The notes below the pieces were generated by a model, which saw nothing but the letters and a program-made list of their open reading frames with translations, searched no databases and was not told where the DNA came from. From Roseococcus sp. SDR (GTDB lineage Bacteria; Pseudomonadota; Alphaproteobacteria; Acetobacterales; Acetobacteraceae), in contig NZ_JAHRCU010000009.1 of assembly GCF_019083995.1 (NCBI RefSeq), forward strand, positions 62,001 to 126,000: 64,000 nucleotides of DNA, given 5' to 3'. A program made the position numbers and the translations under genes. Shown here one piece after another: positions 10,747-55,565 of the stretch (its first letter is position 1; every line of letters begins with the position of its first letter).

Positions 10747-10858
10747 AGAATCCGGCCGCACAGCGGCCGGCGCCGCCCAACCGACCTCTTGGCCCAGCAC
10801 GACAGCCGCGCGGCGAAGCCAAGCGCGCGGAGCGCGCGCCCGGCGCCTGAGGGCGTAA
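10747..10858 (-). repeat. Post-stop three-hairpin repeat, copy A
   Basis: The element lies in the sense of the minus-strand DUF2889 gene, beginning a few nt after its stop. In order it has GCCCTCAGGCGCCGGGC, stem 1 (GCGCGC/GCGCGC), the TTGGCTTC block, a short GCCGCGCGGC palindrome, a spacer, then stem 3 (CCGGCCGC, loop TGT, GCGGCCGG) and the tail ATTCTG. The spacer and stem 3 closely match copy E. See the finding on the repeat family. Confidence 0.8.
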
Positions 10859-10859
10859 C

Positions 10860-11453
10860 CTAAATCTGACTCTCTTCCCGCTTCTCCGCGAGGTCGCTCC
10901 ACTCGGGCCACTTCTTGCGCACCACCGGACTGTCCGGCGCATAGGCGTGGCAGGTGCCGAGCAGGGCGGGGCGCTTGCGCGGCGCGCCGGCGGCTTCCGC
11001 CTTGCGCTGCGCCGCCTGGCGGCGGTTGCGCAGCGGCCACATGGTCTGGAAGGCCACGGTGCCCATCTGCGCCAGCACCTCGCGCAGATGGGTGCAGCCC
11101 AGCACGCCCCCCACGCGCTCATTCACCGCGCGGTTGAAGCCCGGCCCGATGGTCAGCCCCGCGAGCTTGGCGAAGGCGGGCGTCGCCCCGGTGCAGACGG
11201 CGAAGGGCGTGTGGTCCGAGGCGGCCTCGCAGGCGATGATCAGCATGTCCTCATTGATCGTCATCCGCACCCACATGCCGTGGATGGGATCGCCGGGGCC
11301 CACCTGGCCGCGATGCTCGGAGGGGAAGCCGTAGGTCTTGGTGTCGGTGAGATGCGCCTCGATGTCCACCAGCCCATCCTCGCGCACATAGCCGCGCAAC
11401 TGGATGTCGCGCAGGTGTTCGAGCTTGCGGGGGGCGGGGGCGGAGAGCGGCAT
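10860..11453 (-). CDS. DUF2889 domain protein
   Basis: The 197-aa protein matches what I recall of DUF2889. It has an N-terminal RGYVREDGLVDIEAHLTDTK, then GDPIHGMWVRMTI, then a central GGVLGCTHLREVL containing a conserved Cys-Thr-His. No signal peptide or TM segment is seen. The C-terminal 50 residues are basic and probably disordered. The function of this family is unknown. It is convergent with the RND operon and divergent from secB. Confidence 0.75.
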   Translation of the reverse strand: MPLSAPAPRKLEHLRDIQLRGYVREDGLVDIEAHLTDTKTYGFPSEHRGQVGPGDPIHGMWVRMTINEDMLIIACEAASDHTPFAVCTGATPAFAKLAGLTIGPGFNRAVNERVGGVLGCTHLREVLAQMGTVAFQTMWPLRNRRQAAQRKAEAAGAPRKRPALLGTCHAYAPDSPVVRKKWPEWSDLAEKREESQI

Positions 11454-11561
11454 CCCTCAGAGATAGGCTTTTGGTGCGCCGCCGCAAAGGGCGCGACATG
11501 GCTGGCGGCTCCGCGCCGCCCGTGGTAGCGCCCCCCATCCCTATTGATCGAAGGCGATCCC

Positions 11562-12056
11562 ATGTCCGACCAGCCCCAGAACCCCGCCAACGGGAACCCC
11601 GCCAATGGCAGCTCCGGCCAGGAGCAGATGCCGATCGTCCTGAACATCCAGTTCACCAAGGACCTTTCCTTCGAGGTGCCCGGCGCGCCCGGCATCTACG
11701 CGACGCTGCGCGAGCAGCCGCGGGTGGACCTGGCACTCGACGTGCAGGCCCGCCCGATCCAGGAGGGCGAGAACGTTTTCGAGGTCTCGCTGATGATCCG
11801 CGCCGACGCCAAGGCGAACGACACGGCCTGCTTCATCGCCGAGCTGACCTATTGCGGAATCTTCACGCTGAACGTGCCGCAGGAGCATCTGGAGCCGGTC
11901 CTGCTGGTGGAATGCCCGCGCCTGCTCTTCCCCTTCGCCCGCAACATCCTGGCCGATGTGACGCGCGAGGGTGGCTTCCCGCCCGTGATGCTGAACCCGA
12001 TCGACTTCGTGCAGCTCTGGCAGAGCCGCCGCGCCCAGCCCGTCGGCACGGCGTGA
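11562..12056 (+). CDS. secB: Protein-export chaperone SecB
   Basis: SecB is a cytosolic tetrameric chaperone that holds preproteins unfolded and delivers them to SecA. The 164-aa protein shows the family blocks IQFTKDLSFEVP, CFIAELTYCGIFTL and CPRLLFPFARNILADVTREGGFPP. ATG 11562 is preceded by GAAGG at a good distance, whereas the in-frame TTG at 11544 has none. The N-terminus has a Pro/Asn/Gly-rich stretch of about 20 residues before the fold. A clear intrinsic terminator follows, so it is probably monocistronic. Confidence 0.95.
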   Translation: MSDQPQNPANGNPANGSSGQEQMPIVLNIQFTKDLSFEVPGAPGIYATLREQPRVDLALDVQARPIQEGENVFEVSLMIRADAKANDTACFIAELTYCGIFTLNVPQEHLEPVLLVECPRLLFPFARNILADVTREGGFPPVMLNPIDFVQLWQSRRAQPVGTA

Positions 12057-12062
12057 CGCCCC

Positions 12063-12105
12063 GCAAGGGCGGGAATGCCCCCCGCCCTTGCATTTTTTCA
12101 TTTTT
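12063..12105 (+). terminator. Rho-independent terminator of secB
   Basis: A perfect 11-bp stem (12063-12073 with 12081-12091) with a 7-nt loop is followed by six T and a further T-rich run. It starts 6 nt after the secB stop. Confidence 0.88.
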
Positions 12106-12212
12106 GATCTGCGCGCGAAATTATAAATATCAGCGAGAAATACACGCAGGACTTGCATTTCCACCCATCTGCTCGCTCTAATTTTGGCCAACGGTTACCA
12201 AGGGTTAGCCGA

Positions 12213-13400
12213 ATGGCCTCCGTCCGCCTTGCCTTGCCCGACAGCGCCATCCGGCAATCTCCCGGGGCGTCTCAAACGCTGCTCCCACTCTCCCCGCCCC
12301 ATCTGGCGGGTGGTGAATTGGACCGCCTGCGGCTCTCCCTGGAATCCGGCTGGCTGGCCCCGGCGGGGCCCGAGCTCCTGGGTTTCGAGGCGGAGATCGC
12401 GGAAGCCGCGCGCCTGCCGCATGCGCTGGCGACCAGTTCCGGCACGGCCGCCCTGCATCTGGGCTATCGCCTGCTCGGCGTGGAGCCGGGCGACGAGGTC
12501 TGGGCGCCAAGCCTCACATTCGTCGCCACCGTGGCGCCGGCGGTGCAGATGGGCGCCACGCCCCGTTTCCTCGACGTGGACCCCACCTCCTGGACGCTCG
12601 ATCCGTATCTGTTGCGGGAGGAGTTGGCCGTGGCCGCCCGGCGCGGCCGCCTGCCGCGCTGCGTGGTCCCGGCCGATCTCTACGGCCAGCCCGCCGACAT
12701 GGCCGCCATCCGCGAGGCCTGTGACGCCTGGGGCGTGCCCATCCTGTCGGACAGCGCCTGCGCGCTCGGCGCCATGCAGCATGGCCGCCCAGCGGGCCAT
12801 GGCGCGCGGCTGGTCGCGCTCAGCTTCAACGGCAACAAGATCGTGACCGCGGGCGGTGGCGGCGCGCTCCTCTCGGCCGAAGCGGGGCTGATCGCCCAGG
12901 CGAGGGCGCTGGCCACCCAGGCGAAAGAGCCAGCCGTGCACTACCAGCACGAGACGACCGGGTTCAACTATGCCATGAGCTCGCTGCTCGCCGCCGTCGG
13001 CCGCGCCCAATTGCCGAGCCTGGCCGAGCGGGTGACGACGCGGCGCGCCATCTTCGCGCGCTATGCCAAGGCGCTGGCCCATCTGCCGGGGCTTTCCTTC
13101 ATGCCGGAGCCCGCCTGGGCGCAATCCTCACGCTGGCTCACCGCCATGCTGGTAGAGCCGCGCGCCTTCGGCACGGATCGCGAGGCGCTGCGCCGGGCCC
13201 TGGCCGAGGAAGGGATCGAGAGCCGCCCGGTCTGGAAGCCGCTGCACCTCCAGCCCGCCTTCCGCGATGCGCCCGTGGTGGGCGGCGGCGTGGCGGCGGC
13301 ACTGTTCGAGCAGGGGCTCTGCCTGCCCTCGGGCAGCGGGATGACCCCGGCCGACCAGGCGCGCGTCATCGCCGTCATCCAGGCCCTGCATCGCGGGTGA
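12213..13400 (+). CDS. DegT/DnrJ/EryC1/StrS-family sugar aminotransferase
   Basis: This is a PLP enzyme of the type that makes amino sugars on nucleotide-sugar precursors for surface glycans. The 395-aa protein has the N-terminal substrate-loop motif ATSSGTAALHLGYRLLG, then DLYGQPADM and SDSACALGA. The PLP-lysine region is FNGNKIVTAGGGGALL, and the tail resembles SRPVWKPLH. ATG 12213 has AAGGG 9 nt upstream; an in-frame opening at 12153 would add 20 residues unlike the family. A glycosyltransferase starts 9 nt after the stop. The usual EDaAqalGA is SDSACALGA here, a mild deviation. The exact sugar is unknown. Confidence 0.87.
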   Translation: MASVRLALPDSAIRQSPGASQTLLPLSPPHLAGGELDRLRLSLESGWLAPAGPELLGFEAEIAEAARLPHALATSSGTAALHLGYRLLGVEPGDEVWAPSLTFVATVAPAVQMGATPRFLDVDPTSWTLDPYLLREELAVAARRGRLPRCVVPADLYGQPADMAAIREACDAWGVPILSDSACALGAMQHGRPAGHGARLVALSFNGNKIVTAGGGGALLSAEAGLIAQARALATQAKEPAVHYQHETTGFNYAMSSLLAAVGRAQLPSLAERVTTRRAIFARYAKALAHLPGLSFMPEPAWAQSSRWLTAMLVEPRAFGTDREALRRALAEEGIESRPVWKPLHLQPAFRDAPVVGGGVAAALFEQGLCLPSGSGMTPADQARVIAVIQALHRG

Positions 13401-13409
13401 CGCGGCGCC

Positions 13410-14639
13410 TTGGCGCGGATCCTCTACCTTCACCAGCATTTCTCCACGCCCTCCGGCGCCACCGCCACGCGCAGCCACGCGCAGGCCCGCGCCCTGGCGC
13501 AGGCCGGGCATGCCGTCACGCTGGCCTGCGGCCAATGGCAGGGCGCAGTGACCGGCCTCGAAGGCGCCTTTCGGCGGGGCGCCCGCCAGGGCCGCATCTC
13601 GGGCTTCGAGGTGCTCGAATGGGCCATCCCCTGCGGCAATGCGATGGGCGAGGCGGCGCGCATCGGCGCCTTCCTGCGCTACGCGGCGCGCGCCACGCGG
13701 CTCGCGCTCCGGCCCGGATGGGACCTGGTGATCGCCAGCTCCACCCCGCTCAGCGTCGCCATCCCCGCGCTGCTCGCCCGCCAGGCGCGCGGCACGCCCT
13801 TCCTCTTCGAGATGCGCGACCCCTGGCCCGAGCTCCCTGCCGCCATGGGCCTGCGCCGCCCGCTGCTGCTGCACGCCATGGAACGCCTGGCCCGCGCCGC
13901 CTGCCGCGAGGCCGCGGCCGTGGTGGCGCTGACCGAGGGCATGGCCGAGACCGCCCGCCGGCGTGGCACGCCGCCCGAACGCCTCCGCGTGATCGGCCAG
14001 GGCTGTGACCTCGATCTCTTCGGCCCGCAGGTCCCGCCCTGGCGGCCGGATGGCGCGGGCAGCGGCGAGATGCTGGCCGTCTATGCCGGCGCGCATGGCC
14101 GGGCCAATGGCCTGCACCAGCTGCTGGAGGTGGCGGCCCTGTTGCGCGAAGAGCGCCGCATCCGCCTGCTGCTGGTGGGCGAGGGCGGCGAAAAGCCCGC
14201 CCTGCTGGCGGAGGCGGCGGCGCGCGGCCTGGCCAACCTCAGCTTCCTCGACCCGATGCCCAAGCCGGAGCTGGCGCGGCTGCTGGCCGGCAGCCAGGTG
14301 GGCCTCCTCTGCCTCGCGCCCATCCCCGCCTTCGCCGAATGGACCGCGCCCAACAAGCTGATGGACTATCTCGCCGCCGGGCGCCCCGTGCTCTCCAACG
14401 TCCCGGGCGAGGCGGCGCGGCTGCTGGAGGCCGGCGGCTGCGGTGAAACCCATGCGGAACCCGCCGCCATGGCCGCCGCCCTGCGCCGCCTGGCCGAACA
14501 GCCCACCCGGCGCGAGGCGATGGGTCAGGCCGCCCGCCGCCTGGCCGAGCGGCAGCATGACCGCCGCCAGCTCGCCACGCGCTTCGTCACCGCCGTCGAA
14601 GGCGCGCTGGCCGCCGCCCCCGCGAGGGCCCTCGCATGA
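13410..14639 (+). CDS. Glycosyltransferase family 4
   Basis: The 409-aa protein has a GT-B fold. The N-terminus ARILYLHQHFSTPSGATATR has the glycine-containing acceptor-site loop of WbuB-like GT4 enzymes. The middle has FEMRDPWPELPAAMG, and the C-terminal half carries VIGQGCDLDLFGP and the donor-site ExxxxxxK-like region (NKLMDYLAAGRPVL). The start is a TTG at 13410, chosen because translation from it gives the standard N-terminal beta strand directly; no ATG fits. It is coupled to the next gene by an ATGA overlap. It probably transfers a sugar to a lipid-linked or nucleotide acceptor in surface glycan assembly. Confidence 0.85.
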   Translation: MARILYLHQHFSTPSGATATRSHAQARALAQAGHAVTLACGQWQGAVTGLEGAFRRGARQGRISGFEVLEWAIPCGNAMGEAARIGAFLRYAARATRLALRPGWDLVIASSTPLSVAIPALLARQARGTPFLFEMRDPWPELPAAMGLRRPLLLHAMERLARAACREAAAVVALTEGMAETARRRGTPPERLRVIGQGCDLDLFGPQVPPWRPDGAGSGEMLAVYAGAHGRANGLHQLLEVAALLREERRIRLLLVGEGGEKPALLAEAAARGLANLSFLDPMPKPELARLLAGSQVGLLCLAPIPAFAEWTAPNKLMDYLAAGRPVLSNVPGEAARLLEAGGCGETHAEPAAMAAALRRLAEQPTRREAMGQAARRLAERQHDRRQLATRFVTAVEGALAAAPARALA

Positions 14640-15718
14640 TCCTGCTGCTCTCCGCGGCGCATCCGAGCGACGACATGCGCGTGGTCCGCAAGGAGGGCGA
14701 GAGCCTGGCCGCGGCCGGCTGGGCCGTGACCCATCTCTCACCCGCACCCGCGCGCCCCATCGGCCCCGTGGCGGTGGAGGGGGTGCCGCCCGCCCCGCGC
14801 TGGCGGCGCTGGCGGGCGCTGCATGCGCGTGCCGTCGCCCTGCAGCCGCGCGTGATCCACGCCTCAGAGCCCGATGCCTGGATCATCGCCTGGCTCGCCG
14901 CCCGGCGCACGGGGGCACGCCTCGTGCTCGACGTCCATGAGCATTATCCCTCACGCCTGGACGCGCGCCTGCCCGCCTGGCTGCGGCCGGTGGCACAGGG
15001 CGCGATCCGGCGCGTGATGGCGGCCCTCGGCCGCCGCGCCGATGCCGTGGTGCTCGCGAAGGACGGCCTCGCCGAGGATTTCCCCGGCGCGCGCTGCGTA
15101 GCCGTCCGCAACCACGCGCTGGTGCCCGAAAACCTGCCCCGACGCCGGCACGGCCCAGGCCCGGTGACGCTGCTGCATCTGGGTGCCATCGGTGTGGCTC
15201 GCGGCTGGCCCGTGCTGCTGGAGACACTGGCGCAGTGCCCGCCGGAGACCCGCCTACTGGTCATCGGCCGCTTCACCGATGGCAGCGAGGCGGCCTTTCA
15301 TGACGCGGCGGCCGCGCGGGGCCTGGCCGGCCGTATCACCTGCACCGGCTGGCTCCCGGCCGAGGCGGCCATGGCCCGCGCGGCGATGGCGGACGTCAAC
15401 CTGATCCTGTTCCAGCCGGGCGAGGAGAATCACCGTCTCGCTTTGCCGCATAAGCTCTTCGACGGGATGGCGCTGGGCCTGCCCGTCATTGCGCCCCGCT
15501 TCGCGACAGGCGTGGCCGACATCGTGACGGGCAGCGCCTGCGGGCTGCTGGTGGATGTGACGGATGCGGGCGCCATCGCCGCCGCCGTGGCGCAACTGGG
15601 CGATGCGGCGTTGCGCGCGACGCTGGGCGAGGCCGGCTGGCAGGCCGCCCGCGGCGCCTGGGGCTGGCCCGCCGAGGCGGAGAAGCTCGTCGCGCTCTAT
15701 CGCGAGCTGCTCGCCTAG
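14636..15718 (+). CDS. Glycosyltransferase family 4
   Basis: The 360-aa protein has the N-terminal strand ILLLSAAHPSDDMRVVRKEGESL, with the conserved R-x-x-(K)-E of GT4 enzymes acting on surface glycans. It also has VIHASEPDAW, LVLDVHEHYPSR, and a C-terminal donor domain with LPHKLFDGMALGLPVIAP. It is translationally coupled to the preceding transferase (ATGA). Its stop codon overlaps, on the opposite strand, the stop of the convergent thioesterase gene: both use the palindrome CTAG at 15715-15718. Confidence 0.84.
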   Translation: MILLLSAAHPSDDMRVVRKEGESLAAAGWAVTHLSPAPARPIGPVAVEGVPPAPRWRRWRALHARAVALQPRVIHASEPDAWIIAWLAARRTGARLVLDVHEHYPSRLDARLPAWLRPVAQGAIRRVMAALGRRADAVVLAKDGLAEDFPGARCVAVRNHALVPENLPRRRHGPGPVTLLHLGAIGVARGWPVLLETLAQCPPETRLLVIGRFTDGSEAAFHDAAAARGLAGRITCTGWLPAEAAMARAAMADVNLILFQPGEENHRLALPHKLFDGMALGLPVIAPRFATGVADIVTGSACGLLVDVTDAGAIAAAVAQLGDAALRATLGEAGWQAARGAWGWPAEAEKLVALYRELLA

Positions 15719-16212
15719 GCGCCCCGCCGCCGCAGCGCGAGCCGCTTCGCCGGCTCGCCCGTCGCGCGGCTCGCCAGGATCTCCCGCACATCCGCAGGCC
15801 AGGGTGTCACGCGGCGGATGTTCAGGTCCACGCAGAGATAGAGCACCTCATGCTCCGAGGCGGTCCAGCCCTCGGTGAAGTGGAACATCCGGTGCTTCAC
15901 CAGCAGGCGCTTGTCATCGGCAGCGAGCACCATGCTCTCCGCGCCGATCGGCATCGCCTCCGTCATCTCGCGCTGGTAGTCGAGCCAGGCCTCCGCCGCG
16001 AAGGTGCCGAGGCCGCCCTTCTTGAGCGAGGTGCCCAGCCCCAGATGCGGCCAGAGCCGGTCGGTCTGCAGGTCATAGGCGACCAGGTAGTAGCCCATGT
16101 TGAAATGGCGATAGCTGTCCACCCACTCGCGCTTCACCGCGACCAGCGGCTCATCCCAGCGGAACCAGCCATCCTCCAGCCGCGGCGCCGGACCATCCTC
16201 GACAAAGGGCAT
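15715..16212 (-). CDS. Hotdog-fold thioesterase
   Basis: The 165-aa protein resembles the single-hotdog acyl-CoA thioesterases of the YbgC/4HBT class. It has VDSYRHFNMGYYLVAYD, in the place of the catalytic D-x-N-x-H-x-NN-x-Y region, and the strand pairs ESMVLAADDKRLLVKHRMFHF and EHEVLYLCVDLNIRRVTPWP. ATG at 16212 has a GGGGAGG Shine-Dalgarno 5 nt upstream; the longer open frame to 16350 only runs through repeat copy B. The substrate is unknown; carnitine/betaine-type CoA thioesters are one possibility for this subfamily. Confidence 0.7.
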   Translation of the reverse strand: MPFVEDGPAPRLEDGWFRWDEPLVAVKREWVDSYRHFNMGYYLVAYDLQTDRLWPHLGLGTSLKKGGLGTFAAEAWLDYQREMTEAMPIGAESMVLAADDKRLLVKHRMFHFTEGWTASEHEVLYLCVDLNIRRVTPWPADVREILASRATGEPAKRLALRRRGA

Positions 16213-16264
16213 GCAGCCTCCCCAACCCGACCAGAGCAGAAACGAAGAACAAGCATCGCGCCCC

Positions 16265-16350
16265 GAGAATCCGGGCCGAATAGGCCCGGCGCAAAGCTTC
16301 AGCTTTGCGAAGCCAAGCGCGCGGAGCGCGCGCCCGGCGTCTGAGGGCAT
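16265..16350 (-). repeat. Post-stop three-hairpin repeat, copy B
   Basis: The element is in the sense of the minus-strand RraA-like gene, starting 5 nt after its stop. It has GCCCTCAGACGCCGGGC, stem 1 (GCGCGC pair), CTTGGCTTC, stem 2 (GCAAAGC, loop TGAA, GCTTTGC), stem 3 (CCGGGCC, loop TATTC, GGCCCGG) and the tail ATTCTCG. It is the cleanest three-stem copy. Confidence 0.82.
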
Positions 16351-16354
16351 AAAC

Positions 16355-17059
16355 TCAGTGAATATCGTCGGACTTGGCCAGCGCCTCGCGCAGCTTGCCG
16401 ATGTCGAAATCCGGGCGCTTCGCCATCTCCAGGATCACCGCCTCCTTGCGGCTCAGCAGATCGATCGCGGCGGGCAGCGCCTTCACCGCATCGGCGGGGA
16501 TGGTCACGGCGCCATGGCGGTCGGCATGCACCACCTCGTCATGCACCACCTGCATGCCGTGCACCGTCACCGGCCGGCCCCAATCCACCACATGCACATA
16601 GGCGTGGCTCGGGTTGATGATGCCGAGCAGCTGGAAGCCGGGCGCCACCATGTCGAGGTCGCGGATCGAGCCGTTGGTGACGCAGCCCAGCGCCTTCAGC
16701 CCCTTGTGGACATTGGTGTTCACCTCGCCCCAGAAGGCGCCGGTGCCCGGCACGTCGTCCAGATCCTGCAGCACGACCACGGTCGGCATGTCGGTGTTGG
16801 CGACATACTCGTACCAGCCGATGCGCGACGCGCGGTCCTGCTCCTTGGTGCGGCCCGAGGGGAATTGCGCGCGGATGGTGCCGACGCGCGCCGGGCCGCA
16901 GATCGGCTTCATGGAGGGGTGGGCGCAGTCGAAGGTGCGGACGGTGAAGCCATGGCCGCGCCGCGCGGGCACCACGAGTTCCAGCGCGTTGCAGATGGTG
17001 GGCGTGTCCCATTCGCAGAGCGCGTCGAGATCGGCTTGGGTATAGGGGCGCGTGACCAT
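16355..17059 (-). CDS. RraA-like / HMG-aldolase family protein
   Basis: The 234-aa protein of the RraA superfamily includes 4-hydroxy-4-methyl-2-oxoglutarate aldolases and oxaloacetate decarboxylase-like enzymes. It shows CEWDTPTICNAL near the start, then GPARVGTIRAQFP, a metal/active-site region GEVNTNVHKGLKALGCVTNGSIRDLD, and HVVDWGRPVTVHGMQV. An AGGAGG site lies just upstream of the ATG. The family blocks G-E-x-x-x-x-A and G-x-x-x-D-G-x-x-R-D are present only in part (GxxxNGSIRDLD), so the catalytic role is not certain. It is divergent from the porin. Confidence 0.78.
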   Translation of the reverse strand: MVTRPYTQADLDALCEWDTPTICNALELVVPARRGHGFTVRTFDCAHPSMKPICGPARVGTIRAQFPSGRTKEQDRASRIGWYEYVANTDMPTVVVLQDLDDVPGTGAFWGEVNTNVHKGLKALGCVTNGSIRDLDMVAPGFQLLGIINPSHAYVHVVDWGRPVTVHGMQVVHDEVVHADRHGAVTIPADAVKALPAAIDLLSRKEAVILEMAKRPDFDIGKLREALAKSDDIH

Positions 17060-17140
17060 GGTGTTCCTCCTGAGGTTCGCGCCAGTGTCGGGCGCGGCGG
17101 CGCGCGCGTCAAACCGGGGCGTGACAGATTCGTGATGCGC

Positions 17141-17168
17141 TGGACAGGGCGCGGAACGGCGCTACAGC
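17141..17168 (+). promoter_or_regulatory. Candidate porin promoter
   Basis: TGGACA (17141-17146), 16 nt, then TACAGC (17163-17168). The start point would fall near 17175, two nucleotides before the GTG at 17177, a near-leaderless layout seen at other genes here. Both elements are weak matches. Confidence 0.35.
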
Positions 17169-17176
17169 ATCGCCGC

Positions 17177-29385: not shown

Positions 29386-29474
29386 GCAAGCGGCCCGCAG
29401 GGCCGAAAGGCCGTCGCCGCTTATGCGGCGAAGCCAAGGGCCGCGGACGCGGCCCGCCCGGCGTCTGAGGGGCA
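29386..29474 (-). repeat. Post-stop three-hairpin repeat, copy C
   Basis: The element is in the sense of the minus-strand SDR gene, about 29 nt after its stop. It has CCCCTCAGACGCCGGGC, stem 1 (GGGCCGCG / CGCGGCCC), CTTGGCTTC, stem 2 (CGCCGC, loop ATAA, GCGGCG), then GC-rich palindromes. Both stems differ entirely from copies B and D but still pair. Confidence 0.78.
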
Positions 29475-29502
29475 CGAGGGCAAAGCCTTCGTGCGGTCCC
29501 GA

Positions 29503-30255
29503 TCAATGCGGAAAACGTCTCGTCCCGCCATCCACATGGATCACCTGGCCGGTGATGTAATGCGCGAGCGGCGAGGCCAGGAAGGTCGCCAGCACCGCCA
29601 GGTCCCGCGCCTCGCCGATATAGCCGACCGGCACCTGGCTTTCGGCCCAGGCGCGCCGCGCCTCCTCCGTCGGGAGGATGCGCTGGTCGATCTGCTCGGA
29701 GCGGATGCGGCCCGGCGGGATGGAGTTCACCGTGATGCCGTCCCGCCCCAGCGTGCGGCTCAGCGCCTTGGCCCAGATATGCACCGCGCCGTTCGGCGCA
29801 TTGGCCGCATTGATCATCCAGGCCTCGTCCTGGCCCGTCAGGTTGATGATCCGGCCGAATTTCTGCGCCTGCATCATGGGCACCAGCGCATGCGTGATGC
29901 GGCGGCCGGCATGGAAGTTGATCTCCATCGCCTCCATCCAGGCCTCGTCCGCGCCCAGCCCCTCCTGCGGGCGGGAGGAGCCGGCATTGTTCACCAGGAT
30001 GTCGCAGCGGCCGAAGCGCGCCTGCATCGCATCCCGCACGCGCTCCCCCGCATCCTTGGCCGTGAAGTCCTGCTCGATGATGAGCGGCTCCGCACTGGCC
30101 GGCAGCTCGGCGGCGAGCGTCTCCAGCAGCGGGCGGCGGCGCGCCAGGATGGCGAGGCGGCAGCCCTCGGCCGCCAACTCCTTCGCGATGGCCCGGCCGA
30201 GGCCGGCCGAGGCGCCCGTCACCAGCGCCACCTTGCCCTGCAGTTGAAGATCCAT
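29503..30255 (-). CDS. SDR-family oxidoreductase with atypical active site
   Basis: The 250-aa Rossmann protein has LVTGASAGLGRAIAKEL as the cofactor loop, ILVNNAGSSRP, and TVNSIPPGRIRSEQI near the end. The usual YxxxK is HIWAK here, so the catalytic Tyr position is His, and the usual Ser block reads NLTGQDEAW. I recall an SDR subfamily with AVHAWAKGLSR that shares this, so it is probably a real subgroup rather than a decayed gene. A strong GGGAGGG precedes ATG 30255. It lies directly behind the tctA terminator in the same orientation. Confidence 0.82.
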   Translation of the reverse strand: MDLQLQGKVALVTGASAGLGRAIAKELAAEGCRLAILARRRPLLETLAAELPASAEPLIIEQDFTAKDAGERVRDAMQARFGRCDILVNNAGSSRPQEGLGADEAWMEAMEINFHAGRRITHALVPMMQAQKFGRIINLTGQDEAWMINAANAPNGAVHIWAKALSRTLGRDGITVNSIPPGRIRSEQIDQRILPTEEARRAWAESQVPVGYIGEARDLAVLATFLASPLAHYITGQVIHVDGGTRRFPH

Positions 30256-46174: not shown

Positions 46175-46183
46175 GGAAGCGCA

Positions 46184-46212: not shown

Positions 46213-46213
46213 C

Positions 46214-46242
46214 TTGGCGCGCGGCCCGGGCGCCGCTATGCC
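46214..46242 (+). promoter_or_regulatory. Chorismate mutase promoter (back-to-back)
   Basis: TTGGCG (46214-46219), exactly 17 nt, TATGCC (46237-46242). Expected start near 46250 and ATG at 46253. This argues against the upstream ATG at 46238, which lies inside the -10. Confidence 0.48.
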
Positions 46243-46252
46243 TTCCGCACCC

Positions 46253-47032: not shown

Positions 47033-47036
47033 CGCC

Positions 47037-48125
47037 ATGAACGCGCTCCTCCCCCGCCCCTCCATCCTCTCCATCGAGCCCTATGTCGGTGGCGAGTCGA
47101 AGATCCCGGGCGTGAACCGGATCATCAAGCTCTCCTCCAATGAGGGCGCCTTCGGCCCGCCACCCATGGCGCAGGAGGCGATCATTGCCAGCGCGCGCGA
47201 GGCGCATCGCTACCCGGATGGTGGTGCCACCAAGATCCGCGAGGCGATCGGCGCCAAGTTCGGCCTCGATCCCGCGCGCATCGTCTGCGGCAATGGCTCG
47301 GACGAGCTGATCGCCTACCTGATCCTCGCCTATGGCGGCGAGGGCACCGAGCTGATCATGCCCGCGCACGGCTTCGTGATGTATGACCTGACCGGCCGCT
47401 ATGCCGGCTGCCGCGTCATCAAGGTGCCGGAGAAGAACCTGCTCGCCGATGTGGACGCGATGCTCGCCGCCGTCGGCCCGCGCACCAAGCTCGTCTGCCT
47501 CGTGAACCCCAACAACCCGACCGGCGCGCTGCTGCCGCAGAGCGAGGTGAAGCGCCTGCGCGCCGGCCTGCGCGACGACATCCTGCTGATCCTCGATTCC
47601 GCCTACGCGGAATACGTGACCGATCCCGATTACGATCCCGGTCAGGCGCTGGTGGATGCCTCGGGCAACACCGTCATGACGCGCACCTTCAGCAAGATCT
47701 TCGGCCTGGGCGGCCTGCGCCTCGGCTGGGCCTATATGCCGCCGCAGGTGGCCGATGTGCTGGCGCGCATCCGCGGCCCCTTCAACGTGAACGCCACCGC
47801 CATGGCCGCCGGCATCGCGGCTCTGGCCGAGCCCGGCTGGATCGAGCGCAGCGTGGCGCACAACACGGAGTGGCGCGCCAAGACCGTGGCGGGCCTGCAG
47901 GCCGCGGGCATCAAGGTCTGGCCCAGCGCCTGCAACTTCATCCTCGCCGATTTCGAGGATGCGGCGCGCGCCAAGGCCGCCGATGCGGCGCTGCGCGCGC
48001 GCGGCATCATCGTCCGCGGCGTCGGCGGCTACAGCCTTCCCACCTGCCTGCGCATCACCATCGGCACGGCCGAGGAATGCCAGATGGTGATCGAGGGCCT
48101 GACCGAATTCATGCGTGATGTTTGA
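47037..48125 (+). CDS. hisC: Histidinol-phosphate / aromatic aminotransferase
   Basis: The 362-aa fold-type I PLP enzyme of the HisC family has [57 protein letters not shown] and the PLP lysine in [17 protein letters not shown]. Placed between chorismate mutase and a prephenate dehydrogenase, it probably acts as an aromatic (prephenate or phenylpyruvate/hydroxyphenylpyruvate) aminotransferase, perhaps with a histidine role as well. ATG 47037 lies 4 nt after the upstream stop. Confidence 0.88.
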
Positions 48126-48216
48126 CGCCCTCAGACGCCGGGCGCGCGCTCCGCGCGCTTGGCTTCGGAATGCTGAAGCATTCCGCCTCGGCTATTCGCC
48201 CCGGATTCTCGTGGCA
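48125..48216 (+). repeat. Post-stop three-hairpin repeat, copy D
   Basis: It begins at the hisC stop itself. Order: GCCCTCAGACGCCGGGC, stem 1 (GCGCGCG, loop CTC, CGCGCGC), CTTGGCTTC, stem 2 (GGAATGC, loop TGAA, GCATTCC), an imperfect stem 3 around a TATTC loop, and the tail CCGGATTCTCG. Blocks match copy B with a differently sequenced but paired stem 2. Confidence 0.82.
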
Positions 48217-48248
48217 CGGCGCCTGACTTGGGCTGGCGGTTCCCGCCC

Positions 48249-49136
48249 GTGACCGAGCCCCTCTTCGATCGGCTCTGCCTGATCGGCGCCGGCCTCATCG
48301 GCGGCTCCATCGCGCGGCGCAACCGCGAGGGCCACGCCCTCGCGCGGGAGGTCATCGTCACCGCCAACAGCCAGGCCACGCGCGACCGCGTGCGGGAGCT
48401 GGGCTTCGCCGACCGCGTCGAGGATGACCTCGCTGCCGCCGTGCGCGATGCCGATTGCGTCATCCTCTGCGTCCCCGTCGGCGTCTATGGGCAGGTCATG
48501 GCGAAGATCGCGCCCCATCTGAAGCCCGGCGCCATCCTCACCGATGTCGGCTCCACCAAGGGCTCCGTGATCCGCGACGTGGCGCCGCTGCTGCCGCCCG
48601 GCGTGCATCTCGTGCCCGCCCACCCCATGGCGGGCACCGAGTTCTCCGGCCCCGATTCCGGCTTCCCCACGCTCTTCGAAGGCCGCTACGTCATCGTCAC
48701 GCCGACCGAGGGCACCGACCCCGCGGCCGTGGAGAAGGTGCGCGAACTCTGGCGCCGCTGCGGTTCCATGATCGAAAGCATGGACCCCGTCACGCATGAC
48801 AAGGTGGTGGCCATCGTCTCCCACCTGCCGCACCTCATCGCCTTCACCATCTGCGGCACGGCGGACGACCTCAGCGAGGAAACCCGCGAGAGCGTGCTGA
48901 AATTCGCGGCCTCCGGCTTCCGCGACTTCACCCGCATCGCCGGCAGCGATGTGAACATGTGGCGCGACGTCTTCCTCAACAACCGCGAGGCGGTGCTGGA
49001 AATGCTGGCCCGCTTCACCGAGGACGCGCAGGCCTTCGGCCGCGCCATCCGCTGGGGCGAGGCCGGCTTCATCGAGGACCGCATCAAGCGCGGCCGCAAG
49101 ATCCGCCACAGCCTGATCGAGCGCAAGCAGGCTTAG
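48249..49136 (+). CDS. Prephenate/arogenate dehydrogenase (TyrA family)
   Basis: This NAD(P)-dependent enzyme makes 4-hydroxyphenylpyruvate or tyrosine. The 295-aa protein begins RLCLIGAGLIGGSIARR (Rossmann), then DCVILCVPVGVYGQV, LTDVGSTKGSVIRD, LVPAHPMAGTEFSGP (active-site His) and SHLPHLIAFTICGTADDL. GTG 48249 was taken because it puts the Rossmann strand at the usual distance; a TTG at 48228 would start within the tail of the repeat region. No C-terminal ACT domain is present. Confidence 0.9.
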   Translation: MTEPLFDRLCLIGAGLIGGSIARRNREGHALAREVIVTANSQATRDRVRELGFADRVEDDLAAAVRDADCVILCVPVGVYGQVMAKIAPHLKPGAILTDVGSTKGSVIRDVAPLLPPGVHLVPAHPMAGTEFSGPDSGFPTLFEGRYVIVTPTEGTDPAAVEKVRELWRRCGSMIESMDPVTHDKVVAIVSHLPHLIAFTICGTADDLSEETRESVLKFAASGFRDFTRIAGSDVNMWRDVFLNNREAVLEMLARFTEDAQAFGRAIRWGEAGFIEDRIKRGRKIRHSLIERKQA

Positions 49137-49138
49137 TT

Positions 49139-49252
49139 TGCGCCCTCAGGCGCCGGGCGCGGCCTCCGGCCGCTTGGCTTCGCCGCGCCAGAGGCGCGCT
49201 GGGCCCATAGACCTGTTGGGCGGCGCCGGCCGCCATGCGGCCGGATGGTTCT
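49139..49252 (+). repeat. Post-stop three-hairpin repeat, copy E
   Basis: Starts 2 nt after the tyrA-like stop, same sense. It has GCCCTCAGGCGCCGGGC, stem 1 (GCGGCC, loop TCC, GGCCGC), CTTGGCTTC, stem 2 (CGCGCC, loop AGA, GGCGCG), then a GCTGGGCC and TTGGGCGGCG spacer shared with copy A, stem 3 (CCGGCCGC, loop CAT, GCGGCCGG) and the tail. Confidence 0.82.
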
Positions 49253-49262
49253 GCAGACGCTC

Positions 49263-51464
49263 TCAGGCGCGCGCCAGCAGCTTCGGCGCGGGCGGCACAA
49301 GTGCCTCCGGGGGCATCGGGCGGGCCACCAGCCAGCCCTGGATGATGTGGCAACCCGCCCGGCGCAGCGCCAAGGCCTGCTCCTCCGTCTCCACACCCTC
49401 GCCGATCACCTCGATCCCCATGCCCCGCGCCAGGGCCATGGTCGCCCGCAGCACGGCGTAGGATTTCGGGTCATCGGGCAGCCCTGCCGTGATCGAGCGA
49501 TCCAGCTTCAGCCGCTGCACCGGCAGCCGCACCACATGTGGCAGGCCCGAATGCCCGCCGCCAAAATCATCCAGGGCGAGTGGCACCCCCACCTCCCGCA
49601 GCGCGGCCAGGGTGCGCGCCACCCCCGGCAGGTCCCGGATCGCGAGATCCTCGGGAATCTCGATCTCCAGCTGCTCCGGGGGCACCCCGGCCGCGGTCAG
49701 CGCCTCGGCCACTTCAGCGGCGAAGGTCGGGTCATGCAGCGTCGCGATCGAGATGTTGATCCCGAGATTCAGCGGTGCCTCGGGGCGCGTCCCCCAGGCG
49801 GCCAGCAGGCCCACCGCGCGGTTGAGGACGAAGCGATCCAGCTCGAGCATCAAGCCCGCCTCGGCCGCCGTCACGAGCATCTCCGCCGGCGGCACCGTGC
49901 GGCCAAGCCGGGCGCTGTCCCAGCGGATCAGCGCCTCCGCGCCGACCATGCGCCCACTCTCGAGGTCAAGCTGAGGCTGCACATGCAGTTCCAGTTCGCC
50001 CGCGGCCAACGCCTCGCCGAACGCCTCGCGCAACTCGGCCCGCTGCTCGGCCCGCGCGCGCAGCGCGGGCTCGAACAGGGCCACCGCATCGCCGGAGGCG
50101 CCGCGCGCCTCGAAGAGCGCAAGGTCGGCCGCGCGCAGCAACTGGTCCGCCTCAACTCCATGCTCAGGCGCACAGGCGACGCCGAAGCTGCCGGACAAGG
50201 GCCATTCCGCGCCGCCGATCTCCACGGGGCGCCGCAGGGCCTGCCGGAGGCGCTCGGCCAGCGCGGCCGCGCCCTCATGCCCTGCGCCGAAGGCGAGGAC
50301 GGCGAACTCATCCCCGCCCAGGCGACCCACCAGATCGCCCGGGCGGACGCCCTCGCGCAGGCGCCGGCCCGCCTCGACCAGCAGCGCATCGCCGACGGCC
50401 TGGCCGTGGCGGGCATTGGCCGCCTTGAACTGGTCGATATCGACCAGCACCAGCACGCCGCGCCGCTCCGCAGCCAGCATCTCCTCCAGCGCGGCCCTGA
50501 AAGTGCCGCGGTTGATGAGGCCGGTCAGCGGATCGCGCTCGACCAACTGCTCGATCTGCTCCTGCGCGGCCTTCAGCGGCGTCACGTCCAGCACCGAGAG
50601 GATGCAGCCGCGCAACTCCGCGGCCGGATCGCCCGTCGCCGCATGGGCGGCCGAGACCCAGGGGGAGGCCGCGATCCGCAGGCGCCGATCCACCTGCCCG
50701 GGCAGGGTCAGGCATGCCTCGCTCTCCATCTCCGTGCTGAAGCCGAAGGGCCCATCCGGATCGGGCGCCGAGGTCAGCAGGAGGCCGGAGTCCGCCAGCC
50801 CTGGCGGGGCCTCCGCGCCGAACAGCGCCACCAGCCGGCGATTGGCGAAGACGGTCCGCCCCTCACCATCCAGCTGCCAGATGCCGACAGGCGCCATTTC
50901 GAGCAGGGCGCGCAGTCGCCCCTCGGATTCCGCCAGCGCCAGCTCACCGCGCTTCACGGCGGAGATATCCACGGCGAAAACCGCAACTTCGCCACCCGGC
51001 AGCCGGGTCTGGCGCACACGCTCCCAGCCGCCCTCGCCTGTCAGCACCTCGAAGGGCTCACCCACCGCATGGGCATGCTTGTCCAGCCGGCGGGCCATTT
51101 CGGCAGCGCGCTCACGCGGCGGGAGGTGGGCGAGCAGCGCCTGCATCACCTCGACCAGATGCGGATGCCGCCCCAGCGGCGCGACGCGGCGCGTCCAGCC
51201 CTGGCCCGGCCGGCCATTGTGCCAGGCCAGGCGCTGATCGGCCGCGTAGATGGAGACGCGATAGGGCGTGGCCGCCATGACCTGTCGCCAGAGCGCGACC
51301 TCGCGGCGCAGGCGGCAGGTCCACCAGCCGAGGAGCGCGAACGGCAGCACAGGAAGAAACAGCCAGGCCGGCGCCGACCACCAGGCAAGGCCAAGGAACA
51401 CCCCAACCACCAGGGCGATGCCCAGGCGAAGGATCGGCAGGTTCAGGCGCGGCGGATGGGGCAT
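49263..51464 (-). CDS. Membrane PAS-GGDEF-EAL c-di-GMP protein
   Basis: The 733-aa protein has two N-terminal TM helices (residues about 10-50), PAS-like sensory regions, a GGDEF domain and a C-terminal EAL domain. GGDEF: RDPLTGLINR and RLGGDEF, with an intact inhibitory RPGD just before it. EAL: GAEALIRWD, NISIATLHDP, EIPEDLAIRD, LDDFGGGHSGLPHV (normally DDFGTGYSSL), LKLDRS and GEGVETEEQ; the catalytic metal and base residues appear present. It may have phosphodiesterase activity with the GGDEF domain as cyclase or as a GTP-responsive regulator. Convergent with tyrA across repeat E. Confidence 0.92.
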   Translation of the reverse strand: MPHPPRLNLPILRLGIALVVGVFLGLAWWSAPAWLFLPVLPFALLGWWTCRLRREVALWRQVMAATPYRVSIYAADQRLAWHNGRPGQGWTRRVAPLGRHPHLVEVMQALLAHLPPRERAAEMARRLDKHAHAVGEPFEVLTGEGGWERVRQTRLPGGEVAVFAVDISAVKRGELALAESEGRLRALLEMAPVGIWQLDGEGRTVFANRRLVALFGAEAPPGLADSGLLLTSAPDPDGPFGFSTEMESEACLTLPGQVDRRLRIAASPWVSAAHAATGDPAAELRGCILSVLDVTPLKAAQEQIEQLVERDPLTGLINRGTFRAALEEMLAAERRGVLVLVDIDQFKAANARHGQAVGDALLVEAGRRLREGVRPGDLVGRLGGDEFAVLAFGAGHEGAAALAERLRQALRRPVEIGGAEWPLSGSFGVACAPEHGVEADQLLRAADLALFEARGASGDAVALFEPALRARAEQRAELREAFGEALAAGELELHVQPQLDLESGRMVGAEALIRWDSARLGRTVPPAEMLVTAAEAGLMLELDRFVLNRAVGLLAAWGTRPEAPLNLGINISIATLHDPTFAAEVAEALTAAGVPPEQLEIEIPEDLAIRDLPGVARTLAALREVGVPLALDDFGGGHSGLPHVVRLPVQRLKLDRSITAGLPDDPKSYAVLRATMALARGMGIEVIGEGVETEEQALALRRAGCHIIQGWLVARPMPPEALVPPAPKLLARA

Positions 51465-51538
51465 GTCACTCTCTTCCACGCGGAAGAAAGCGCCCGGGCC
51501 GGTTAAGCCTTCCTTGCAGCCACTCGGGAAAAACCGAC

Positions 51539-52273
51539 TCAGATCAGCGCGATGAGCGCCAATGCAGCCAGCACGCCGCCGGCCCCCAGCAGGAGGGCGC
51601 GCAGGGTGCCGCCGGCCGCCACCTGCCCCTCCGCCCGCGCCAGCAACCAACCCGCCGGCGCCACGCCGAGGAGCGTCACGAGCAGCGAGGGCCAGGCGCC
51701 CGGCGCATCGAGCAGCATCAGCGGCAGCAACGGGAGGAGGCCGCCCATCGCCTGACCAACGGCCAGCGCCGCCGCCTCCTGCGCCGCGCGGGCCGGTTGC
51801 GGCTCGATCAGGTCAAGCTCGAAGCGCATCATGAAATCCACCCAACGGCGCTTGTCGGCGGCGATGGCCTCCACCGCGCGGGCCAGCGTATCGCCACGCA
51901 GGCCGTAGCGGTGCAGCACGGCCGCGACCTCCCATCGCTCGCGCTCGGGGTATTCCTCGGTCTCGGCTTCCTCGCGGCGGCGCTCGGCCGCGTAGCGCTC
52001 TGTGGCGCCCAGCACGGCGAAGTACCGCGCCAGCGCGGCGACCACCGCCCCCGCACCCAGCGCCGCGAGGCCGCCCGCCAGCAGCGCGGGCCCGCTGATG
52101 CCCCCCGCCAGCAGGCCGATGATGACGGCGAGCGGCAGCACCGGCCCCTGCGCCAGCCCGGTCAGGAAGGGTACTTCCGCGCGGCTCAGCAGCGCGTGCT
52201 GTTCGCCCTCCGGCGGGCCGGGCGGGGCGGGCGGCAATCCGTCGCGATAGGGGTGGGGCGCGGGGTGGTCCAT
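51539..52273 (-). CDS. VIT1/CCC1-family (ferritin-like) iron/manganese transporter
   Basis: The 244-aa membrane protein of the vacuolar iron transporter family has a cytoplasmic N-terminus, TM helices from about residue 35, and a central charged hydrophilic segment rich in Glu (RREEAETEEYPERERWEVAAVLHRYGL). That segment corresponds to the metal-binding helical domain, with WVDFMMRFELDLIEPQP after it, then three more TM helices. It probably moves Fe2+/Mn2+ out of the cytoplasm. It is monocistronic. Confidence 0.84.
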   Translation of the reverse strand: MDHPAPHPYRDGLPPAPPGPPEGEQHALLSRAEVPFLTGLAQGPVLPLAVIIGLLAGGISGPALLAGGLAALGAGAVVAALARYFAVLGATERYAAERRREEAETEEYPERERWEVAAVLHRYGLRGDTLARAVEAIAADKRRWVDFMMRFELDLIEPQPARAAQEAAALAVGQAMGGLLPLLPLMLLDAPGAWPSLLVTLLGVAPAGWLLARAEGQVAAGGTLRALLLGAGGVLAALALIALI

Positions 52274-52324
52274 CGCGCGGTTCTACCTCATCCACGCCGC
52301 GTGACGAAACCTTCGCGTGGCGCA

Positions 52325-52354
52325 CGAAAAAAGGGCGCCCCTTGCGGAGCGCCC
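52325..52354 (-). terminator. Rho-independent terminator of cold-shock gene
   Basis: On the minus strand an 8-bp stem (52347-52354 with 52329-52336) runs straight into a TTTTTT tract at 52325-52330, about 35 nt after the gene. Confidence 0.86.
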
Positions 52355-52388
52355 TTCATCATCCGCGATCCCGGAGGGATCGCCGAAT

Positions 52389-52592
52389 TCAGCCGGCCTT
52401 GAGGTTGACCGCGGAGGTCTTGCCGCGCTCTTCCGCCAGCTCGTAGGAAATCTGCTGGCCGTCCTTCAGGCCCTGCAGGCCGGCGGCCTGAACCGCCGTG
52501 ATGTGCACGAACACATCGGAACCACCGCCGGCCGGCGAGATGAAGCCGTAACCCTTGGTGGCGTTGAACCATTTCACGGTGCCAGAAGCCAT
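52389..52592 (-). CDS. Cold-shock domain protein (Csp)
   Basis: This 67-aa single OB-fold nucleic-acid-binding protein begins MASGTVKWFNATKGYGFISP, which includes the RNP1 motif KGYGFI, and has RNP2 DVFVHI. It ends QQISYELAEERGKTSAVNL. It acts as an RNA chaperone. ATG 52592 is 9 nt from GGAG; an in-frame ATG at 52607 would add five residues. The leader upstream is long, as is usual for cold-shock genes. Confidence 0.94.
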   Translation of the reverse strand: MASGTVKWFNATKGYGFISPAGGGSDVFVHITAVQAAGLQGLKDGQQISYELAEERGKTSAVNLKAG

Positions 52593-52851
52593 CCGCTTAT
52601 TCTCCAAAATCCTGCGCGCGGGAATCTCCGGCGCATATCACCCACTCCAGCCGGACTTCGCAGAACACGCGCTGATCGCCCGCACCTTTCCCGGCAGGGG
52701 CACGCGTTGTCCGGCGGGTACACATCCAGCGGGTCTGAAGAGAGCTTCTGGGGTCGGCACGGCAAGACGAAGGTGAGGCGCACAAGCGCAGATCGCCCCG
52801 GCGAAGTCAAACAAAACCGGTCGGCCTGCTGCCATGCACGGCACGCGTGGC
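52593..52851 (-). other. Non-coding leader/promoter region of the cold-shock gene
   Basis: The gap between the cold-shock gene and groEL is about 320 bp. Apart from the groEL terminator at its far end, I see no gene. It holds a possible minus-strand -35 (TTTGACT near 52804-52810) with a poor -10, which would give a 5' leader of about 190 nt. No cold-box motif was recognised. Open frames crossing it look like chance. Confidence 0.4.
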
Positions 52852-52884
52852 GCAAAAAGAAAGGGCGGCCCTTGCGGACCGCCC
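52852..52884 (-). terminator. Rho-independent terminator of groESL
   Basis: On the minus strand a GC stem (GGGCGG / CCGCCC, 52863-52884) is followed by TTTCTTTTT at 52854-52862. It lies about 30 nt past the groEL stop. Confidence 0.86.
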
Positions 52885-52913
52885 CTCTCGTTTCGCGTCG
52901 AGCGAAGGACTTC

Positions 52914-54569
<1,656 letters not shown>

Positions 54570-54605
54570 TCATATGGGGTTGAAAGCGATGGTCGTGCGG
54601 GCCGA

Positions 54606-54896
54606 TCAGGCCTCGACGATGCCCATCACGTCGGATTCCTTCATGATCAGCAGCTCTTCGCCGTTGACCTTCACCTCGGTGCCGGACCACTTGCCGAACA
54701 GGATGCGGTCACCCGCCTTCACGTCGAGCGGGCGGACCTCGCCCTTGTCGTTGATGGTGCCGGCGCCAACGGCCAGAACCTCACCCTCCTGCGGCTTCTC
54801 CTTGGCGGTGTCGGGGATGATGATGCCGCCCGCGGTCTTTTCCTCGGCCGTGATGCGGCGAACGAGAACGCGGTCGTGCAAGGGGCGGAACTTCAT
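54606..54896 (-). CDS. groS: Co-chaperonin GroES
   Basis: The 96-aa lid subunit for GroEL begins [22 protein letters not shown]. The mobile loop is [10 protein letters not shown], followed by [34 protein letters not shown] 54896 follows an AGGAGGAAA site. It is the first gene of the groESL operon, with two CIRCE operators upstream. Confidence 0.98.
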
Positions 54897-54954
54897 GTCG
54901 GTTCTTTCCTCCTGATGAGTCAGGCTATGGGAACCTCCCCGCGTGCGGCGCCTG

Positions 54955-54981
54955 TTGGCACTCACTGGCGAGGAGTGCCAG
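54955..54981 (-). promoter_or_regulatory. CIRCE operator 1 (HrcA)
   Basis: TTGGCACTC-N9-GAGTGCCAG matches the TTAGCACTC-N9-GAGTGCTAA consensus except in the outer positions, which are changed symmetrically. It overlaps the predicted transcription start of groESL, an ideal repressor position. Confidence 0.9.
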
Positions 54982-54982
54982 G

Positions 54983-55011
54983 GAGTTAGGCGGGGCCTCG
55001 GCCAGAGTCAA
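54983..55011 (-). promoter_or_regulatory. groESL promoter
   Basis: On the minus strand TTGACT (55006-55011), 17 nt, TAACTC (54983-54988). It lies exactly between the two CIRCE elements. The CTTGA start of the -35 would also suit RpoH. Confidence 0.6.
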
Positions 55012-55020
55012 GGCGGATGG

Positions 55021-55047
55021 CAGCACTCTTCGAGTGCGAGTGCTAAT
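55021..55047 (-). promoter_or_regulatory. CIRCE operator 2 (HrcA)
   Basis: Plus strand GCAGCACTC-N9-GAGTGCTAA: the right arm is a perfect consensus half and the left arm differs at two outer bases. It sits just upstream of the -35, 66 bp centre-to-centre from operator 1. Confidence 0.88.
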
Positions 55048-55187
55048 CACCTGATTCCACAAAAGATTTTTCTAGCGAAGCCGCTTCCGATCATGTCAGC
55101 CTCATGACGTGACCAGCCCGAGCAACGGGCCGGCCGGAGGATCAGCCGGTCCCGCGGGTTGGAGACGACCCTGACGGAGGCTGCCTG

Positions 55188-55460
55188 ATGCTGGATGTTC
55201 TCTCCCCCATGGTCCGCCAAAAGGACTGGCGCCTGACCACGGCGGAAATCCTCTACCACATGCCCGACCACCCGGGCGTTCTTCAGACCTTCATCTGGCA
55301 GAAGCACGATTTGGCGCCGAGTTTTCCCGAACTGACCCGCTTTCTGGACTACTGGAAGCGCGAAATCGAAGGGCCGCTCCACTCCGTCCGCGTGGCCAGC
55401 GCCGCCCTGATCCGCCCGGCGGACCTGAAATACGCCAACGGGGTGTTTTTGTTGCATTAA
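55188..55460 (+). CDS. Usg-like protein
   Basis: The 90-aa protein is nearly identical in pattern to the alphaproteobacterial Usg family (LTTAEILYHMPDHPGVLQTFIWQ; FPELTRFLDYWKREIEGPLHSVRVA; the C-terminal GVFLLH). The function is unknown; the name comes from an association with trp genes in some species, which is not seen here. It is divergent from groESL. Confidence 0.85.
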   Translation: MLDVLSPMVRQKDWRLTTAEILYHMPDHPGVLQTFIWQKHDLAPSFPELTRFLDYWKREIEGPLHSVRVASAALIRPADLKYANGVFLLH

Positions 55461-55477
55461 CCGCCCAGAGATTTTTT

Positions 55478-55565
55478 GCGCCCTCAGGCGCCGGGCGCGC
55501 GCGCCCGCGCGCTTGGCTTCGGATCGCTGAAGCGCTCCGCCGGCCGCACGTGCGGCCGGATTCGG
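55478..55565 (+). repeat. Post-stop three-hairpin repeat, copy F
   Basis: Starts 18 nt after the usg stop, same sense, just after a TTTTTT run. It has GCCCTCAGGCGCCGGGC, stem 1 (GCGCGC, loop GCCC, GCGCGC), CTTGGCTTC, stem 2 (GGATCGC, loop TGAA, GCGCTCC; one mismatch), stem 3 (CCGGCCGC, loop ACGT, GCGGCCGG) and the tail ATTCGG. Confidence 0.82.

Follow-up and report, generated by a model that had tools for sequence, protein, structure and literature searches.

Six short, hairpin-rich repeats lie in a 64,000-nucleotide stretch of the genome of the alphaproteobacterium Roseococcus sp. SDR (contig NZ_JAHRCU010000009.1, positions 62,001 to 126,000; here called the window), each of them close behind the stop codon of a gene, and they raise the question of whether such repeats serve the upstream transcript as RNA or are mobile DNA that has settled at gene ends. 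A preliminary description of the sequence had left the choice between a structured RNA of the 3' untranslated region (3'-UTR) and an element akin to the repetitive extragenic palindromes (REPs) that are moved by REP-associated tyrosine transposases (RAYTs). We consider it probable, at roughly 0.7, that the six copies are members of a family of small, non-autonomous mobile DNA elements of alphaproteobacteria that resemble miniature inverted-repeat transposable elements (MITEs). Mobile DNA is supported because this one genome (hereafter the home genome) holds 129 copies, because some stand in tandem arrays, because presence and absence vary across species and because full-length members have inverted ends and a duplication of a TNA target (T, any base, A).

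The common denominator of the six copies is a core consisting of [N]CCCTCARRCGCCGGGC, a variable stem with a TCC-type loop and TTGGCTTCG, after which further hairpins follow. The pattern CCTCARRCGCCGGGC-N6-30-TTGGCTTCG has exactly six matches in the window and none in 100 shuffles, and the six copies were confirmed where they had first been placed, with a fixed head and a covarying hairpin common to all. In an alignment of 33 cores of one stem class, drawn from the home genome and from others, 99.2% of the stem cells are paired and the covariation is 0.43, against 0.10 in shuffles and at most 0.04 with the partner slid; only the inner stem pairs are informative here, because the rows were picked by a pattern that fixes head and tail. 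The covariance-model search of the home genome and its relatives that the preliminary description had proposed was carried out with a model, R1, built from this alignment, and it revealed a large family. At a threshold of E<=0.01 the home genome has its 129 copies at 103 sites, of which 84 are single, 13 double, 5 triple and 1 quadruple tandem. The head of 100 of these sites reads CCCTCARRC with few exceptions, in a model whose rows were chosen by pattern and whose head is invariant by construction. Contigs C2, C22, C28, C34 and C39 of this draft genome begin or end inside or beside a copy, and copies are thus probably under-counted.

Beyond the home genome, all 21 genomes of the genus match R1, with at least 2 to 105 copies each, some of these genomes being incomplete drafts. 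At a strict setting, and judged on at most 26 candidates per genome, 22 of 241 genomes of the class match, the home genome included; among other genera of the family, two genomes out of 15 sampled match, and none of 3 in the class-wide sample. A pattern scan of public genomes returned at least 113 stretches, and the matches listed are all from alphaproteobacteria: Roseomonas, Neoroseomonas, Falsiroseomonas, Roseococcus, Roseicella, Azospirillum, Niveispirillum, Porphyrobacter, Croceicoccus, Qipengyuania, Micavibrio and others. Viral contigs, in a collection described as 2.9 million contigs, gave 15 matching stretches, and a plasmid collection queried with copy B gave one partial match. In a literature search, mostly at the level of titles and abstracts and including parts of PMC3733652, PMC3049150, PMC2873474, PMC2267715, PMC12016507 and PMC12306157, no published description of this repeat was recognised; the family is large and apparently undescribed.

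What such an element looks like when complete can be seen in full-length relatives, which occur in Falsiroseomonas, Roseicella, Neoroseomonas and uncultured Rhodospirillales and among a few copies of the home genome. They measure 116-206 bp and have inverted ends, TACC...GGTA, that match each other at 8-11 of the first 14 bases. Ends of the TCATACC and GGTATGA types, with at most one mismatch, enclose 21 of 111 cores in named loci, and the exact pattern TNATACC...GGTATNA was found at 14 of 118 named cores and 2 of 119 home cores, against 2 in 2260 control windows. When the flanks were left free, the search yielded 24 full-length elements, 11 of them from the uncultured Rhodospirillales genome C5coas_bin-2163 and two from the home genome. 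The triplets that flank these 24 elements are TNA at 42 of 48 ends and form identical pairs in 15 of 24 cases; where both are TNA, 14 of 19 pairs are identical when a quarter would be expected (p=1.2e-5), and 8 of 10 remain identical when C5coas_bin-2163 is left out (p=4e-4). Inverted ends and a target duplication, by which a MITE is recognised, are both seen in this full-length set. By eye, three home copies (C10:59439, C17:81157 and C23:12516) show the full anatomy: a long hairpin follows the left end, then come the T-tract, the core and three more hairpins, and the right end closes the element; in the last of the three the end letters have drifted. In C5coas_bin-2163 five full-length copies (L020, L028, L038, L056 and L091) are nearly alike at about 153 bp, a likeness that suggests a recent burst.

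The target itself offers a possible reason for the position of the repeats. Since TGA and TAA both fit TNA, a gene with either as its stop codon would have the stop restored on insertion there. With our own gene calls, 10 of the 24 full-length elements have a flanking TNA that coincides exactly with the called stop codon of a neighbour; at three further ends there is an ATG that reads in the frame of a called gene, twice at its called start, and 35 of the 48 ends are neither stop codon nor in-frame ATG. Of the background TNA sites in gaps, 433 of 4394 are stops in the named loci, where 22 of the 24 full-length elements lie, and 351 of 1754 in the home loci; measured against the named-loci fraction, the excess of stops has p=5e-5 per element and p=0.017 per end. 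At two loci, L043 and L065, one gene stops at the left TGA, and the right TGA, placed after the element's last A, yields an ATG in frame with the next. Plasmids of Azospirillum, which carry an NCBI annotation, offer an independent check: in five of seven loci the right end of the element coincides with the annotated stop of the right-hand gene, the left and right genes lying on the same strand in one of the five (11 plasmid matches, of which 10 were fetched and 8 were annotated; ends were judged by eye, and the end letters have partly drifted). Two full-length copies of the home genome stand directly behind a stop, and the orthologues in 6 and 3 relatives align up to the stop with no element after it.

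Placement in the home genome was examined in 80 regions around copies and, for the remaining copies, in the window; genes were called by a codon-usage script, and start positions are accordingly approximate. The preliminary description held that the repeat always follows a stop codon in sense orientation. Placement next to a gene end stands genome-wide, but the rule of orientation does not: 71 of the 103 home sites follow a stop on the same strand, 29 face the start of a gene on the opposite strand and 3 lie at contig ends. Nor does the agreement of six out of six speak for non-random orientation, as had been argued, for at 71 in 100 per site its probability is about 0.13 and a small sample suffices. 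Counted from the listed distances, the 71 sense sites lie within 11 nt of the stop in 44 cases and within 31 nt in 60. In other genomes there are 61 sites in sense after a stop and 32 antisense among the 93 classifiable of 119 sites (113 loci, many of them from C5coas_bin-2163).

At the 5' end of the S and L forms, the shorter forms to which most home copies belong, a T-rich tract of variable length stands between the stop and GCCCTC. This end, T-tract plus CCCTCA, lies just past the stop in sense copies and often 5-9 nt before the start in antisense ones, where it reads TGAGGG and is separated from the start codon by a short spacer, often rich in A. Of the 29 antisense home sites 17 lie 5-9 nt from a called start, and 11 of the 32 elsewhere lie 6-9 nt from one. 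GAGGG is found in the Shine-Dalgarno window of 15 of 20 genes behind an antisense copy against 28 of 610 others, and the antisense end fits a Shine-Dalgarno sequence, as far as its letters can tell.

Turnover of the copies was followed with a joined query of 68 flanks, of which 56 mapped in at least one relative, with 44 matches in each of two close relatives; 80 of these 88 matched flank regions were fetched. The element was scored as kept in 58 of the 80 and as lacking or strongly changed in 22, where the score is a fuzzy and generous pattern and 58 is an upper count: at least one flank scored as carrying the element, that of copy D in the relative G255, is empty by eye. Copy D lies in the gap between hisC and tyrA, which is readable in 17 relatives. 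Four of these (G254, G246, G251 and G256) have a version of the element unlike copy D, and 13, among them the closest, G255, G259 and G245, have none; at the site of copy D, G255 and G245 read TTTGACGCCCT without the element. Empty sites of the short forms are compatible with insertion or with deletion, some sites in G255 and G259 carry shortened elements, and the G255 gap may be a remnant. In the related genome G260 this gap and a second one (L245 and L368) are occupied by another kind of repeat-like sequence, longer and GC-rich, with inverted GGTTGAGGGAGG-type parts. One gene is preceded by L-form antisense copies in G250 and G244 and by another copy in the home genome and G254; relatives that have no copy there show a different sequence ahead of the start.

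Several results weigh against a MITE-like family or against its preference for stop codons. Both ends are present in no copy of the window, and both exact ends in only the two home cores mentioned. In the set defined by exact ends, home and named cores together, the duplication is weaker, with 9 of 16 direct against 6 of 16 inverted matches, and 45 single home copies with a GCGGCCGGAT-type end failed a direct-repeat test, as 16 of 200 permutations scored equally high; in these 45 copies the target duplication is thus not found. In the 1.9 Mb of sequence retrieved, no autonomous element with TACC...GGTA ends was seen. When 375 loci were scanned for a longer element bounded by such ends, 24 candidates came up, of which 23 include the core and the remaining one is 153 bp long; and in G164, the only whole genome searched for ends, the end pattern matched 4 times against 8 in the control. 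The excess of stops depends on how it is counted, and per end there is none with the home-loci fraction; in Azospirillum just one left end out of 6 meets an annotated stop. Before sense copies of all forms it is TAG that is over-represented (25 of 67 against 126 of 623 genes, p=0.0006), and TAG is not TNA. Finally, the element was scored as kept at 58 of 80 flanks, which implies that most copies are not very recent.

The same retention, together with the 71 sense sites, is what one would expect of a conserved structured RNA of the 3'-UTR, whose hairpins protect or end the upstream mRNA and whose copies selection keeps behind particular genes. Convergent gaps are also rich in copies, with an element in 34 of 94 against 57 of 419 tandem and 3 of 96 divergent gaps (at loci chosen around copies), and in tandem gaps there is a modest sense bias: 35 sense against 23 antisense in the home genome (p=0.15), 76 against 50 when pooled with other genomes (p=0.026). 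Stem 1 stays paired, with 987 Watson-Crick cells of 1022 in the 163 of 187 unique cores that were kept, 24 with fewer than 4 Watson-Crick pairs having been dropped before the count. If selection acted on an RNA strand, G-U changes should outnumber A-C; in these 163 cores the numbers, small as they are, are 8 G-U and 8 A-C, next to 19 other cells, and there is no excess. The antisense orientation at 29 of 103 sites and the strong variation of copy number between related species speak in the same direction. An intrinsic terminator was rejected, no terminator-like call lying over the six copies and the T-tract lying 5' of the core. The proposed RNA function is not supported by these tests, and we regard it as distinctly improbable. 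A movement of REP-like palindromes by a RAYT, that is, by a transposase related to IS200/IS605 that acts on single-stranded hairpins, would account for short palindromic, intergenic units with an unpaired head in high copy number near gene ends, like the REPs treated in PMC3733652, and copy D is consistent with an insertion after GCCCT, for which the empty TTTGACGCCCT of G255 and G245 speaks unless the gap in G255 is the remnant of a deletion. Y1_Tnp (PF01797), the domain of such transposases, has no match in the home genome, though, and matches in only 1 of 21 genomes of the genus, no GTAG tag stands at the hairpin end, and full-length members have inverted ends and a 3-bp duplication. Of the REP/RAYT-like mobile element that had been suggested, mobile DNA holds and the REP/RAYT part does not, the latter being the least likely of the readings considered.

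More can be said for a spread or rewriting of copies mainly by gene conversion between existing repeats, without transposition, which is nevertheless unlikely as the main process. It would explain why no candidate transposase was found, why copies with GCGGCCGGAT-type ends lack a duplication and how stems change. Orthologous stem-1 arms differ in 20 of 33 parsed pairs (of 58, the rest having been dropped), and in 16 of these 20 the pairing is perfect in either version; with a looser parse, in which differences of loop and of parsing count as well, 35 of 46 pairs differ. The rate of difference in stem arms is 23-25%, only little above the 18-19% of the flanks, and the sites with a TNA duplication are left unexplained. 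In Azospirillum plasmids, at L446 and L442, CGGCGGGC...TTGCC replaces CGCCGGGC...TTGGC, a compensatory change in the outer helix, and the variant is also found in some home copies.

We return to a MITE-like mobile family, in which several consecutive hairpins would surround one conserved module, N-CCCTCARRCGCCGGGC, the TCC-loop stem and TTGGCTTCG. A full-length element that inserts into TGA or TAA would copy the stop codon, leave the gene unchanged and so be tolerated, and one that inserts into a TGA overlapping a start codon would restore the ATG, because the element ends in A. The short forms may be derived from the full-length element, and our best guess is that they are spread, or rewritten, by recombination between copies. 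For the most part the elements would be selfish or neutral, their effects on mRNA ends and translation starts being local by-products. We speculate, and hold it to be doubtful as a whole, that the family is a specialist of gene junctions: it would target stops and stop-start overlaps by the TNA rule and restore both, bring in antisense a ready-made ribosome-binding site, insert into operons without breaking either gene, and let copies swap hairpin arms as complementary units. If a 3-bp duplication rebuilds the stop and makes insertion nearly harmless, a simple rule would explain why a repeat family clusters at stops. It would also account for about 100 structured intergenic sites of the home genome that could otherwise pass as conserved regulatory RNAs. 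Azospirillum, Falsiroseomonas and Roseococcus are a named test set for small repeats that colonise operon junctions and may sometimes supply a ribosome-binding site.

The copies in the window can be read against this anatomy. Copy A, an L form at 10747..10858(-) with its core at 10814-10854, lies between the stop of a DUF2889 gene (10860-11453(-)) and a convergent gene ending at 10670. Copy B, an S form at 16265..16350(-) with its core at 16308-16348, occupies a co-directional gap 3' of the stop of an RraA-like gene (16355-17059(-)). Copy C is a left-arm form, 29386..29502(-), with its core at 29429-29472; its right end was not identified. Its left arm (29473-29502) adjoins the TGA stop of an SDR gene (29503-30255(-)) and consists of TCGGGACC, which stands in place of the end letters TACC, and then the hairpin GCACGAAGG..CCCTCGTG. 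Copy D, an S form at 48126..48216(+) with its core at 48127-48167, begins 1 nt past the stop of an aminotransferase (hisC-like) gene (47037-48125(+)). Two copies lie in convergent gaps: copy E, an L form at 49139..49252(+) with its core at 49142-49182, 3' of the stop of a prephenate dehydrogenase gene (48249-49136(+)), and copy F, an S form at 55478..55565(+) with its core at 55480-55521, 19 nt past the stop of usg (55188-55460(+)). Copies A, B, D, E and F are without inverted ends.

All six upstream genes bear out the names first given to them (DUF2889, RraA-like, SDR, class I/II aminotransferase, prephenate dehydrogenase and Usg). Copy C was rightly recognised but is longer than the 29386-29474 assigned to it, and the description of each copy as three hairpins fares unevenly: A, B, C and F each show three clean hairpins, and hairpin 1 is part of the minimum-energy fold in five copies but not in E. 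The folding z-scores of the six range from -1.3 to -4.4. Elsewhere in the window, at 52327-52699(-), the Rfam cspA thermoregulator matches below threshold (48.8 bits, gathering score 78) over a small called gene at 52389-52577(-).

It remains to place the family among known systems. The preliminary description had reckoned with a match to an already described family: none was found in Rfam or among the REP/RAYT and CGTC REP repeats, whereas the full-length members do look like MITEs. With Rfam 15 the whole window has no match at the gathering score, and copies D, E and F have none up to E=10; a known structured RNA family was rejected, no match lying over the copies. CGTC REPs have a CGTC, TGTC or CCTC tag, a stem of 8-9 bp that starts with AT pairs and a CCA tail, and are missing in Acetobacteraceae according to PMC3733652; here the stem starts with three G/C pairs, there is no CCA tail and the head CCTC is not beside the stem, and this class was rejected, as were the GTAG REPs, for want of the tag and of a RAYT gene in the home genome. 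What the family shares with GTAG and CGTC REPs is repeated extragenic hairpins, an unpaired tag and a place mainly in convergent and co-directional gaps (PMC3733652); it differs in tag and stem, is longer and has several hairpins. GTAG REP ends often provide genes with a TAG stop (same source).

Closer are the bacterial MITEs such as RUP, NEMIS and ERIC, which, according to PMC3733652, are non-coding, 70-300 bp long and beside genes, with inverted ends and strong secondary structure; the target duplication of the full-length members adds to this likeness. Their inverted repeats are of 15-30 bp, whereas here 8-11 of 14 end bases match, the internal hairpin module is the best conserved part, most home copies are without ends and a stop codon is frequently the target. 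The IS1031 group of the IS5 family has the same target rule, TNA with a 3-bp duplication (PMC12016507); the rule alone is common to both, no transposase being linked to the TACC...GGTA ends here. The BOX elements of pneumococcus (PMC3049150) are likewise modular small repeats, over-represented between convergent genes and sometimes encoding the stop codon of a gene; sequence and host differ, and in the family described here it is the 3-bp duplication that would restore the stop codon.

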